A stretch of DNA of 7,836 nt from Rubrivivax sp. GTDB lineage: Bacteria > Pseudomonadota > Gammaproteobacteria > Burkholderiales > Burkholderiaceae. The stretch covers positions 1 to 7,836 of the forward strand of contig SEEY01000160.1 of the NCBI GenBank assembly GCA_004211235.1. Direction: 5' to 3'. Position numbers and translations under genes: made by a program. The notes under the pieces are model-generated. The model made no database searches, was not told where the DNA came from, and worked only from the letters and a program-made list of their open reading frames with translations. How positions within the stretch are numbered: position 1 is the stretch's first letter; every line of letters starts with the position of its first letter. Positions 1-7,290 of the stretch are shown here, piece after piece.

Positions 1-153
1 GACAACTTTCCGACCGATGACATCGTGGCCGACGCGACGCGGATGAATGCCGTCATCGAAGCCCAGGTGCGTCGACAATTGCACCAGTATTTCTGGCTGC
101 ACAAGCGCTTCAAGTCGCGTCCGCCCGGCGAGGCCGACTTCTACGCCAAATGA
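1..153 (+). CDS. lpxL: Lipid A biosynthesis acyltransferase, LpxL/HtrB family (C-terminal 50 residues, 5' end outside window)
   Basis: Only the last 50 codons are present, open at the left edge and ending in TGA at 151-153. The translated tail contains DATRMNAVIE, then YFWLHKRFKSRPPGE at about residues 30-44 of the fragment. This matches the characteristic C-terminus of the LpxL/LpxM/HtrB acyltransferases, in which an aromatic-rich helix leads into W-x-H-K-R-F-K-x-R-P. Enzymes of this family act at the inner face of the cytoplasmic membrane and transfer an acyl chain from acyl-ACP to the 3-hydroxyacyl groups of the Kdo2-lipid A precursor. The catalytic H-x4-D motif lies upstream of the window, so activity cannot be judged. 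The fragment cannot separate LpxL from a paralogue such as LpxM or LpxP. The stop codon overlaps the start of lpxO (ATGA), which implies co-transcription and probably translational coupling. Confidence 0.85.
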   Translation, partial: DNFPTDDIVADATRMNAVIEAQVRRQLHQYFWLHKRFKSRPPGEADFYAK

Positions 154-1070
154 CCCACGACATCCCCTACGTCAAGCTCGCCGTCGTCGCGATCTTCATC
201 GTCAGCACGCTCTACGTGCACCTGCGCGGCCGCGTGCGCCTGAAGTTCTTCCGCCAGCTGACGGATCACTCGACCTTCATGGCGCCTATCAACTGCCTGA
301 TGTACCTGTTCTCCAGGCTGCCGGCGCGGCCCTACCTGCCCGTCAGCGAGTTCAAGGAACTGCAACTGCTGCAGGACCATTGGCAGGACATCCGGGCCGA
401 GGCCTACAAGCTGGCCGACGCGGGCGAGATCAAGAAGTCCGACAAGTACAACGACGCGGGCTTCAACAGCTTCTTCAAGACGGGCTGGACGCGCTTTCAC
501 CTGAAGTGGTACGACGAGGCCCATGCGTCGGCGCGCGAACTGTGCCCGGTGACGACGGGGCTCCTGCAGCGCATCCCGTCCGTCAAGGCCGCGATGTTCG
601 CGGCGCTGCCCCCCGGCGGGCGGCTTGTCACGCACCGGGACCCGTTCGCCGGCTCGCTGCGCTATCACCTCGGCCTCGTGACGCCGAACGCGGAGAGCTG
701 CTACATCTCGGTCGACGGCGAGCGCTACTTCTGGCGCGACGGTGAAGGCGTGATCTTTGACGAGACCTATCTGCACTACGCCGAGAACCAGTCGGACCAG
801 ATGCGCATCATCCTGTTCTGCGACGTCGAACGGCCGCTGAACACGCCCGTGGCGCGCTGGTTCAACCGCTTCATCAGCGGCACGCTGATCCGCGCCGCCT
901 CCGCGCCCAATTCCGACACCGACCGCACCGGCGGCATCAACAAGCTGTTCGCCTACGTGCAGCAGGTGCGGCTGTTCGGCAAGCGCATCAAGGCGCGCAG
1001 CCGCTTTGCCTACTACGCGCTGCAGTGGCTGATCTTCGGTGGCCTGTTCCTGTGGTGGATCTTCGGCTGA
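150..1070 (+). CDS. lpxO: Lipid A hydroxylase LpxO (aspartyl/asparaginyl beta-hydroxylase family, Fe(II)/2-oxoglutarate dioxygenase)
   Basis: The 306-residue product is close to the usual LpxO length of about 300. LpxO enzymes use Fe(II), O2 and 2-oxoglutarate to add a 2-hydroxyl to a secondary acyl chain of lipid A on the cytoplasmic side of the inner membrane. The sequence shows an N-terminal hydrophobic segment (about residues 8-23), the double-stranded beta-helix core with the iron triad H162-x-D164 (in THRDPF) and H209 (in ETYLHYAEN), and R219 (DQMRI) in the place expected for binding the 2-oxoglutarate carboxylate. A second hydrophobic segment, rich in aromatic residues, lies at the extreme C-terminus (about 289-305). 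The ATG at 150 overlaps the upstream acyltransferase stop codon, and no better start is seen. The partnership makes sense because in Pseudomonas LpxO hydroxylates chains that HtrB/LpxL enzymes add. Which chain is modified here cannot be read from the sequence. No terminator is visible after the gene. Confidence 0.9.
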   Translation: MTHDIPYVKLAVVAIFIVSTLYVHLRGRVRLKFFRQLTDHSTFMAPINCLMYLFSRLPARPYLPVSEFKELQLLQDHWQDIRAEAYKLADAGEIKKSDKYNDAGFNSFFKTGWTRFHLKWYDEAHASARELCPVTTGLLQRIPSVKAAMFAALPPGGRLVTHRDPFAGSLRYHLGLVTPNAESCYISVDGERYFWRDGEGVIFDETYLHYAENQSDQMRIILFCDVERPLNTPVARWFNRFISGTLIRAASAPNSDTDRTGGINKLFAYVQQVRLFGKRIKARSRFAYYALQWLIFGGLFLWWIFG

Positions 1071-1094: not shown

Positions 1095-1100
1095 GCTGGC

Positions 1101-1327
1101 TCTGTCAGGAGAGCGCCCCGGTGAACGTGGGGGCCGCCGAAGGCGCAGGGCCCGCAGTGAAATCGGGGCTCGAACGCTCAGGCAAAAGGACTGACAAAAC
1201 GTCATCGGTGGCAGACACTGGCGGCGTTCCTCACTGGAGAGAGGCCAACCCCTGAGTTGGTCCACCGAAGGGGCAAGCCCGCGGCGATTCGCCGGGGTCA
1301 ATCTCTCAGGTACCCCGGACAGCGAGG
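1101..1327 (+). ncRNA. Tandem glycine riboswitch (gcvT motif, two aptamers)
   Basis: Two consecutive copies of the glycine aptamer are readable. Aptamer 1 (about 1104-1195) has the closing stem GTCAG 1104-1108 with CTGAC 1191-1195, the GGAGAGCGC entry, a second stem GAGCG 1111-1115 with CGCTC 1175-1179, the conserved CCGCCGAAGG segment near 1134-1143, and CAGGCAAAAGGAC near 1179-1192. Aptamer 2 (about 1229-1327) repeats the plan: CTGGAGAGAGG, CCACCGAAGGGGCAAGC, and ATCTCTCAGG followed by CCCCGGAC. Its closing stem pairs CCTC 1229-1232 with GAGG 1324-1327 and CTG 1234-1236 with CAG 1320-1322, with one A/C mismatch between the two blocks. The tandem type binds two glycines, usually activates glycine cleavage genes, and here sits directly before gcvT. 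About 33 bases separate the aptamers. Confidence 0.96.
1198..1228 (+). other. Hairpin filling the linker between the two glycine aptamers
   Basis: Bases 1198-1210 can pair with 1216-1228 around a five-base loop (GCAGA, 1211-1215). The outer part is AACGTC with GGCGTT (one T-G wobble). After a single A/C mismatch (1204/1222), the inner part is TCGGTG with CACTGG (two wobbles). The stem accounts for nearly all of the sequence between the last base of aptamer 1 P1 (1195) and the first base of aptamer 2 P1 (1229), so it would stack between the two domains. Pairing was worked out by hand. No folding energy was computed. Confidence 0.55.
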
Positions 1328-1374
1328 ACATCCAAACCCGAATTCCGTCGGAGCTCTTGATGTCCTCTTTGCTG
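1320..1374 (+). promoter_or_regulatory. Riboswitch expression platform: start-codon sequestering stem that competes with aptamer 2 P1
   Basis: GAGGACATC at 1324-1332 is the exact reverse complement of GATGTCCTC at 1359-1367, which contains the gcvT ATG (1360-1362) and the next five bases of the gene. Beyond a three-base bulge (1368-1370), CAGC 1320-1323 can also pair with GCTG 1371-1374. The gcvT Shine-Dalgarno GGAG (1350-1353) lies in the 26-base loop, where CCGA 1338-1341 could additionally pair with TCGG 1348-1351 and cover part of it. The 5' arm reuses GAGG 1324-1327 and CAG 1320-1322, the 3' side of the aptamer 2 closing stem, so the two structures exclude each other. Glycine binding, which stabilises the aptamer, should therefore release the start codon. 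Complementarity is seen directly. The switching mechanism is inferred. Confidence 0.7.
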
Positions 1375-2472
1375 CAAACCCCTCTACACGCCCTCCACGT
1401 CGAACTCGGCGCCAAGATGGTGCCTTTCGCCGGCTACGACATGCCGGTGCAATACCCGAGCGGCGTGATGGCCGAGCACAAGCACACCCGTGCCGCGGCC
1501 GGGCTGTTCGATGTGTCGCACATGGGCCAGGTGCGCCTCGTCGGCCCTGACGCTGCTGCAGCGCTGGAGACGCTGGTGCCGGTCGACATCGTCGACCTCG
1601 GCGTCTTCAAGCAGCGCTACGCGTTGTTCACGAACGAGCAGGGCGGCCTGCTGGACGACCTGATGGTGTGCCGGCGGCCCGACGACCTGTTTGTCGTGGT
1701 CAACGCCGGCTGCAAGGACCAGGACATCGCCCATCTGCAAAAGCACATCGGCGGGCGCTGCACCGTCATCCCCGTGCCCGAGCGTGCGCTGCTGGCGCTG
1801 CAGGGCCCGCAGGCGGTGGACGTGCTGTCGCGCCTGAACCCCGAGGTCGCGAAGCTCACCTTCATGACCGGTGGCTTCTTCGCGCTCGACGGCATAGCCA
1901 CCTTCCTGACCCGTTCCGGCTACACCGGCGATGATGGCTTCGAGATTTCCGTGCACGAGGACGACGCCGTGGCGCTGGCGCGCAAGCTGCTGAGCCATGC
2001 CGAGGTCAAGCCCATCGGCTTGGGCGCGCGCGACTCGTTGCGCCTGGAAGCCGGCCTGTGCCTGTACGGCCACGACATCGATGAAACGACCACGCCGGTC
2101 GAGGCGTCCATCACCTGGGCCATCCAGAAGGTGCGCCGCGCCGGTGGTGCCCGCGCCGGTGGCTACCCGGGCGCGGCCGTCATCGACGGGCAGCTCGCCA
2201 ACGGCGCCGCGCGCAAGCGCGTCGGCCTGGTCGGCAAGGAACGCATGCCCGTGCGTGAAGGCGCCAGGATCGTCACCGCCGACGGCACCGAGATCGGCGT
2301 CGTCACCAGCGGCACGCTCGGCCCCACGGTCAACCAGCCGGTCGCCCTCGCCTACGTCGGCACGTCGCATGCCGCCGTCGGCACCGAGGTCTTCGCCATC
2401 GTGCGCGACAGGCGCACGCCGATGGTCGTCTCCCCTACCCCCTTCACCCCCAACCGCTACTACCGCGGCTAA
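1360..2472 (+). CDS. gcvT: Glycine cleavage system T protein (aminomethyltransferase)
   Basis: The 370-residue product is the usual GcvT length. T protein takes the aminomethyl group carried on lipoylated GcvH, passes the methylene to tetrahydrofolate to give 5,10-methylene-THF, and releases ammonia in the cytosol. Hallmarks in order are the N-terminal [17 protein letters not shown] (about 18-33), FDVSHMGQ (50-57), GGLLDD with D99/D100 where the family's catalytic aspartate lies, [12 protein letters not shown] in the folate-binding core, [19 protein letters not shown], and a C-terminal barrel domain with TSGTLGPT. The ATG at 1360 is preferred over the adjoining TTG at 1357 because GGAG at 1350-1353 is six bases from the ATG but only three from the TTG. 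The gene follows the glycine riboswitch directly and its first codons are part of the putative switch stem. GcvH begins 18 bases after its stop, in the same transcript. Confidence 0.97.
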
Positions 2473-2490: not shown

Positions 2491-2865
2491 ATGAGCATCA
2501 AGTACACCCCCGACCACGAATGGCTTGAAGTCCACGGCGACGGCACCGCCACCGTGGGCATCACCGTGCACGCGCAGGACGCGCTCGGCGACGTCGTCTT
2601 CGTCGACCTGCCCGAGGTGGGCAAGACCTTCGCCGAGAAGGAAGTGGCCGGCGTCGTCGAGTCCGTGAAGGCCGCGGCCGACGTCTACATGCCCGTCGAC
2701 GGCGAGATCACCGAGGTCAACGAAGCGCTGCGCGACGACCCGGCGCTGGCCAACTCCGACCCGCTCAAGGCCGGCTGGTTCTTCAAGGTCAAGCTGAGCA
2801 ATCCAAGCCAACTTGATGCCCTGATGGACTCGACCGCCTACGACGCCCTGCTCAAGACTCTCTGA
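2491..2865 (+). CDS. gcvH: Glycine cleavage system H protein (lipoyl carrier)
   Basis: The 124-residue product is a full-length H protein. It carries a lipoyl arm that shuttles the aminomethyl intermediate between the P, T and L proteins of the glycine cleavage system. The sequence opens with the typical [10 protein letters not shown], continues through [15 protein letters not shown] (about 33-47), and presents the lipoylation site in [13 protein letters not shown] with the modified lysine at K60. The C-terminal part has the family's [23 protein letters not shown]. The Shine-Dalgarno GGAG at 2478-2481 lies nine bases before the ATG. It sits 18 bases after gcvT and 21 before gcvP, as expected for one operon. 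Lipoylation requires LipA/LipB or LplA enzymes and the cycle needs an L protein, none of which is in the window. Confidence 0.97.

Positions 2866-2886: not shown

Positions 2887-5805
<2,919 letters not shown>

Positions 5806-5901: not shown

Positions 5902-7290
<1,389 letters not shown>

Follow-up and report, generated by a model that had tools for sequence, protein, structure and literature searches.

The stretch of DNA analyzed here, 7,836 nucleotides in length and referred to as the window, carries gcvT, gcvH and gcvP in succession, preceded by two glycine riboswitch aptamers. The genes and aptamers of the locus are as follows.

150 to 1070, forward strand: upstream gene of the aspartyl/asparaginyl beta-hydroxylase family (Pfam PF05118, E 2.7e-47)
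1096 to 1203, forward strand: glycine riboswitch aptamer 1 (RF00504, 57.4 bits, gathering score 32)
1224 to 1332, forward strand: glycine riboswitch aptamer 2 (RF00504, 53.5 bits, gathering score 32)
1360 to 2472, forward strand: gcvT, aminomethyltransferase (Pfam PF01571, PF08669)
2491 to 2865, forward strand: gcvH (Pfam PF01597)
2887 to 5805, forward strand: gcvP (Pfam PF02347)
5902 to 7290, forward strand: L-serine dehydratase gene, after gcvP (Pfam PF03313, PF03315)

The tandem glycine riboswitch that the first-pass annotation of this DNA had placed before gcvTHP is corroborated by two RF00504 matches directly upstream of the operon. Both exceed the Rfam gathering score and have the aptamer fold and core letters of the family, and the genes that follow (gcvT, gcvH and gcvP, assigned with Pfam) belong to glycine metabolism. 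The upstream gene is separated from aptamer 1 by a gap of 25 bases (1071–1095). No sigma-70-like promoter was found in 1040–1420, and the upstream gene may itself harbor the promoter. The same interval holds no intrinsic terminator-like site (a GC stem followed by a T run) of the kind that a terminator-type glycine riboswitch would have. Among the GcvT matches scanned, the four nearest (89–93% identity) come from Pelomonas aquatica, a Burkholderiales MAG, Roseateles caseinilyticus and Pelomonas sp. Root1237, which makes this group the most likely origin of the window. A comparison of the leader with plasmids returned no match. Extra glycine aptamers, on other contigs and away from gcvT, are present in two relatives (L093 in G001, L094–L095 in G005).

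A stem over the gcvT start codon and its conservation in the genus

Four elements of the leader and of the beginning of gcvT take part in the two alternative pairings considered below.

1229 to 1236, forward strand: 5' strand of aptamer 2 P1, CCTCACTG (Rfam alignment; all 8 letters identical in 21 of 21 genus leaders)
1320 to 1332, forward strand: switching strand, CAGCGAGGACATC; 1320–1327 form the 3' strand of P1 and 1320–1332 the 5' arm of the start-codon stem
1359 to 1367, forward strand: 3' arm of the stem, GATGTCCTC, with the gcvT start codon (1360–1362), codon 2 and two bases of codon 3
1371 to 1374, forward strand: outer 3' arm, GCTG, which pairs with CAGC 1320–1323 past the TTT bulge (98.7% of alignment cells paired)

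As the first-pass annotation had pointed out, GAGGACATC at 1324–1332 is a perfect 9-base reverse complement of the sequence at 1359–1367, this second copy contains the gcvT ATG, and the CAGC/GCTG pairing prolongs the stem across the three bulged bases at 1368–1370. The overlap with aptamer 2 is also as described: in the Rfam alignment, the 3' strand of P1 consists of CAG, an A·C mismatch (1233/1323) and GAGG, and eight bases are common to P1 and the alternative stem. The mismatch is kept in all 21 genus leaders, and in the alternative stem C1323 pairs with G1371. The further claim that the two structures exclude each other is true of the 13-bp stem as a whole and fails for its inner part. The five pairs between 1328–1332 and 1359–1363 cover the whole ATG, do not overlap P1 and could persist in the presence of glycine.

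The 85-nt segment 1316–1400 folds exactly into the start-codon stem, with an energy of −23.0 kcal/mol (z −2.51) that was matched by 2 of 200 shuffles. The stem is also seen in the minimum-energy fold of the riboswitch plus start, which as a whole is not unusually stable (z −0.73). When the 5' strand (1320–1332) was held fixed and 1337–1380 was shuffled with dinucleotides preserved, a perfect helix of at least nine pairs arose in 41 of 10,000 cases. The repeat is confirmed, and its recurrence at the corresponding position in all 20 genus genomes takes it beyond chance.

These 20 genomes, each with a full-length gcvT match, and the window make up the 21 genus leaders. In a gcvT DNA tree (50 rows, first eight codons left out), they form one clade with a support of 100/97, at the base of which lies L115. 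A GcvT protein tree placed L115 outside the genus clade with an unstarred support of 94, and the DNA tree was preferred. The stem is kept across the genus: the switching strand of each of the 20 genomes, like that of the window, forms its best helix as nine perfect pairs that span −1 to +8 of the start. Aptamer 2 P1 pairs the strand at 1229–1236 with CAGCGAGG (19 leaders) or CGGCGAGG (2 leaders), and 7 of its 8 positions are paired. An alternative stem that shares P1 bases and contains the AUG is found in every genus leader, the window included, and both of its arms are subject to other constraints, namely P1 and the start codon.

Compensatory changes between the two strands, which the first-pass annotation had proposed to seek in homologues, are weakly present inside the genus. 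As scored by the tool, none of the nine helix pairs varies or shows a double change, a result of the gap that MAFFT opened behind CAT in L098 and L115. Read by adjacency, 19 leaders have C behind GAGGACAT and G in front of the ATG, L098 and L115 have G and C at these two positions, and pair 1332/1359 is C-G in 19 of 21 and G-C in 2 of 21. This double change is perhaps a single event. In the genus alignment, 97.6% of cells are paired, relative to 97.1% in shuffles (3 of 500 as high), the covariation score is reached by 39 of 500 shuffles, and slid structures reach 29 to 57% paired cells. The genus itself thus offers thin covariation, and comparison with the layout outside it provides better support.

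Bases 1328–1331, which lie outside P1, are invariant in 21 of 21 leaders despite changes in both the letters and the length of the spacer. Codon 3 of gcvT begins with TC in all 21, and GAGGAC co-occurs with a TCN codon 3 in all 21, the strand of the relatives being altered. Along with the C-G to G-C double change seen by adjacency, these features speak against the complementarity being a by-product of a P1 and a Met-Ser-Ser start fixed in one related group, with the switch working in some other way. Such a by-product would agree with the lack of tool-scored double changes, with the 41 shuffles that gave a helix as long, and with the fact that many gcvT genes begin with ATGTCC in any case (69 of 89 relatives); it is nevertheless considered very improbable.

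The first codons of gcvT show an additional peculiarity. Of the 21 genus leaders, 18 have TCT as codon 3 and 18 have TTG as codon 4 (window 1366–1371), and the adjoining bases of these codons make up the TTT bulge that separates the two helices. From codon 9 on, TCT accounts for 2.7% of 219 Ser codons and TTG for 2.6% of 729 Leu codons, and a rare codon is the majority in 1 of 34 conserved Ser/Leu columns beyond codon 8. The rare codons are suggestive of a constraint at the RNA level. Low RNA structure near start codons is a general trend, and for this reason the codons are not taken as proof.

Predicted states of the translation initiation region

Between the arms of the stem lie two further elements.

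1337 to 1353, forward strand: nested hairpin CCCGA(ATTCCG)TCGG-A-G with the Shine-Dalgarno in its 3' arm (minimum-energy fold; 92.6% of alignment cells paired)
1350 to 1353, forward strand: Shine-Dalgarno GGAG, 6 bases before the ATG (sequence; GGAG also precedes the ATG in the other 20 genus leaders)

The proposal that the start codon is closed when the switching strand is free is borne out by the predicted folds. In local folds, the median unpaired probability of the ATG is 0.001 across the 21 genus leaders, each of which is at or below 0.03, in contrast to 0.44 across 74 relatives that have a recognised Shine-Dalgarno and 45 bases of coding sequence; 4 of these 74 also close the ATG (unpaired < 0.1). 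When P1 was forced in a longer RNA, with 7 of 7 pairs confirmed to have formed in 21 of 21 leaders, the ATG was about half open (median unpaired 0.47, range 0.00 to 0.64). When the tail after P1 was folded alone, the ATG was mostly paired (median unpaired 0.04, range 0.00 to 0.57), partly with downstream coding sequence.

The window probably contains a tandem glycine riboswitch through which glycine switches gcvT translation ON by burial and release of the start codon, its pairing partner having moved in this genus. The sequences, their conservation, the clade and the other layout of the relatives are observed; the glycine binding, the ON direction, the toehold and the effect on the ribosome in the following scheme are inferred. 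Without glycine, 1320–1332 would leave aptamer 2 P1 and pair with the first gcvT codons (9 + 4 pairs), which would bury the AUG. The pairs between 1328–1332 and 1359–1363 would serve as the toehold that starts the stem, and the rest of the stem would invade P1. With glycine, P1 would be held, the invasion would fail and the outer eight pairs would be lost, and the remaining five pairs would be weak enough for the ribosome to open. The inner five pairs with the nested hairpin amount to −6.1 to −7.5 kcal/mol and the full stem to −19.4 to −22.6 kcal/mol. Work on phage MS2 reportedly found that ribosome binding is little affected by structure below a strength of about −6 kcal/mol, and the pairs left with glycine would, by the energy model, come near this limit. 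The model favors the OFF state by 5.9 to 11.3 kcal/mol, a bias that would have to be paid by glycine and tertiary contacts, both of which lie outside the energy model. The mostly paired ATG of the tail folded alone also counts against this scheme.

The first-pass annotation had left the Shine-Dalgarno in the loop. Instead, 1337–1341 pair with 1348–1351 and 1353 in the predicted fold, and three of the four Shine-Dalgarno bases are paired in the nested hairpin. The switch helix itself does not hide the Shine-Dalgarno: the hairpin is predicted to be much alike in both states, and the median unpaired value of the Shine-Dalgarno is 0.32 with the strand free and 0.35 in the tail after P1 (range of the latter 0.05 to 0.45). 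These features bear on a different reading, in which the whole initiation region is closed, the key lock is the nested Shine-Dalgarno hairpin and the start-codon helix merely acts as a clamp. The pairing of the Shine-Dalgarno fits with such a lock, as does the retention of the hairpin arms CCGA/TCGG in 19 of 21 genus leaders around a loop that varies from 4 to 7 bases. However, the isolated hairpin has little strength (−4.1 to −4.5 kcal/mol), L098 and L115 disrupt it in the form drawn, and its similarity in the two states makes it unlikely to be the sole carrier of the glycine response. Overall, this reading is judged unlikely.

A control acting mainly at the transcript level was also weighed, with untranslated gcvT RNA being ended by Rho or degraded without glycine and the start pairing acting as the trigger. 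Coupled effects of this type are described for translational riboswitches in the accessible text of two reports (PMC13104608, PMC5234074). The lack of intrinsic terminator-like sites in 1040–1420, a result with no bearing on Rho, weighs against it, and among the alternatives to start-codon burial this one is given the least credence, as most improbable.

Pairing partners of the switching strand outside the genus

To compare layouts, leaders were collected from 17 named Burkholderiales loci and from 83 usable genomes of the 84 best-scoring non-genus genomes of a family search, in which 399 genomes were searched, 356 had a gcvT match and the closer relatives were sampled. L164, which lies at a contig end without an aptamer, was left out. 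The 100 scorable leaders include 91 distinct ones, or 89 after removal of L173 and L185, whose starts were miscalled. Of the 91, 83 have the best partner of the switching strand upstream of the start codon. In 62 of the 89, the best helix ends 9–17 bases before the start, 48 of these 62 have GCCCTC, and a Shine-Dalgarno motif directly follows the partner strand in 50 of 89. This layout is exemplified by L018, where TGCCCTCGGAG is followed by six bases and the ATG. The remaining best helices are located further upstream (20 of 89) or elsewhere (7 of 89). Among these best-scoring relatives and named loci, the best helix lies over the start codon in none of the 89 distinct leaders. GGAC and the start are separated by a median distance of 71 outside the genus, versus 39–44 within it.

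For these leaders, start-codon pairing as a trait of a wider group was rejected, as the only overlap among the 91 was L173, a start miscalled by the script. Best scores inside the coding sequence in L019, L155, L163 and L169 were taken as chance, as was that in L185, where the start was miscalled. In two short leaders of the sister clade, L129 (G136) and L139 (G104), 41 and 48 bases separate GGAC from the ATG, and the best anti-P1 strand lies between the Shine-Dalgarno and the ATG, which gives two further layouts; each is the sole genome of its genus in the sample. In L139 and L194, the best helix is at −6 to −1.

Outside the genus, the pair that corresponds to A1325-U is G-C in 9 of 89 leaders and that corresponding to G1324-C is A-U in 3 and C-G in 2, in registers chosen to maximise pairing and thus favouring pairs. 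The strands fit their own leaders better than swapped ones (11.49 versus 11.02, sd 0.09), a value reached by 0 of 1000 shuffles. Relative to the consensus strand on the same leader, the 34 variant strands are better in 11 cases, equal in 9 and worse in 14. These comparisons suggest moderate support for covariation outside the genus.

The order-wide survey covered 30 loci and 60 more from the best-scoring of 234 matching genomes among 399; 87 of the 90 were scorable, with start codons assigned by script alone. In 7 of 87 (L213, L216, L217, L218, L220, L243 and L264), the best-scoring helix overlaps the called start, in each case with G-U pairs, and uniqueness of the start-codon layout is not claimed. 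In L243, an 11-pair helix (4 G-U) lies over the script-called start 276 bases downstream of a glycine aptamer and reaches the score of the window. L216, L217, L218 and L220 look alike, with a strand able to form 9 pairs (3 G-U) over the called start, and the open reading frame that follows their glycine aptamer encodes a putative serine hydroxymethyltransferase. In L274, L288, L271 and L285, which show the device in other placements, the anti-P1 strand overlaps or immediately follows the Shine-Dalgarno, leaving 1 to 4 bases between its end and the start. In L201, L222, L225, L252, L267 and L280, the partner of the P1 strand has a T-rich run behind it, an arrangement that resembles an intrinsic terminator. 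The order may contain both transcriptional and translational versions of the glycine riboswitch.

The switching strand itself differs between the genus and its relatives. All 21 genus leaders have A at base 1328, within GAGGAC, whereas none of the 91 others has GAGGAC and 74 of them have GAGGGC. A1328 pairs with the U of the Ser codon TCC. Another difference is seen at the putative site of the former partner.

1342 to 1353, forward strand: candidate site of the relatives' anti-P1 strand, ATGCCCTCGGAG in relatives; the window has ATTCCGTCGGAG, and L111, a member of the genus, has ATCCCCTCGGAG

The sequences of the window and of L111 at this site may reflect decay of the old partner, and the L111 strand looks like a relic of the other layout. 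GGGCAT in the strand coincides with ATGTCC at the start in 30 of 89 relatives, a latent pairing with one G-U, and L125 and L126 have eight such latent pairs. Because the start-codon helix is genus-wide and the relatives have an upstream helix, the switch seems to have been retargeted in the genus, from a site next to the Shine-Dalgarno onto the start codon, while its aptamer strand underwent a G-to-A change. That the partner changed by a G to A substitution at 1328, fitting a pre-existing Ser codon by way of a G-U intermediate and bringing codons 1–5 into the sensor genus-wide, is favored with some reserve. A plausible path, in an order of steps that we infer, would run from latent start-codon pairing through spacer shortening and the G-to-A change that fits the existing Ser codon to loss of the old partner.

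Expression platforms are described as hard to follow through evolution owing to their high variability, in the part of the source available (PMC13273304). Here, the start-codon layout, the sister-lineage layout, the two shortened layouts of the sister clade and the relatives with latent pairing are all present. Their co-existence makes the steps of a change in riboswitch output target traceable and testable base by base. The start codon and the first codons of the enzyme would also become part of the ligand sensor.

Comparison with known riboswitches

The window shares with the tandem form of RF00504 found before gcv genes the two aptamers above the gathering score and the gcvTHP genes downstream. 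It differs in that the Rfam model describes the aptamer only, whereas the expression platform of the window uses the start codon. The window and the Burkholderia species presumably belong to the same bacterial order. The gcvTHP operon is common to both, as a glycine riboswitch before gcvTHP is reported for Burkholderia spp. (Munyati-Othman 2021, as cited in the available text of PMC13104608). Other translational ON switches, those of N. gonorrhoeae gcvT and V. vulnificus add, are already known to close the start region. Neither the start-codon layout nor a change of partner in a glycine riboswitch is named in the titles and abstract openings searched, few of them from subscription papers.

The N. 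gonorrhoeae gcvT leader is presented, in the part of the report available, as a tandem translational glycine ON-riboswitch (PMC13104608). Like the switch predicted in the window, it is an ON switch on gcvT, and in both systems the OFF state would have the translation initiation region paired with bases from aptamer 2. In the N. gonorrhoeae system, bases of P3a, P3 and P1 are proposed to pair immediately upstream of the start (−2 to −5 were mutated; same source), whereas in the window the P1 3' strand plus five bases would pair with codons 1–5. The V. vulnificus add adenine riboswitch, as outlined in the accessible text of PMC5847336, is likewise a translational ON switch, with a P1 switch region that takes part in an alternative domain hiding the Shine-Dalgarno and the AUG. 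The window is not filed as an add member; it would be add-like in mode. The add riboswitch has another aptamer and another ligand, and both its Shine-Dalgarno and its AUG lie in alternative helices (PMC5847336). In contrast, the switch helix of the window covers the AUG and codons 2–5.
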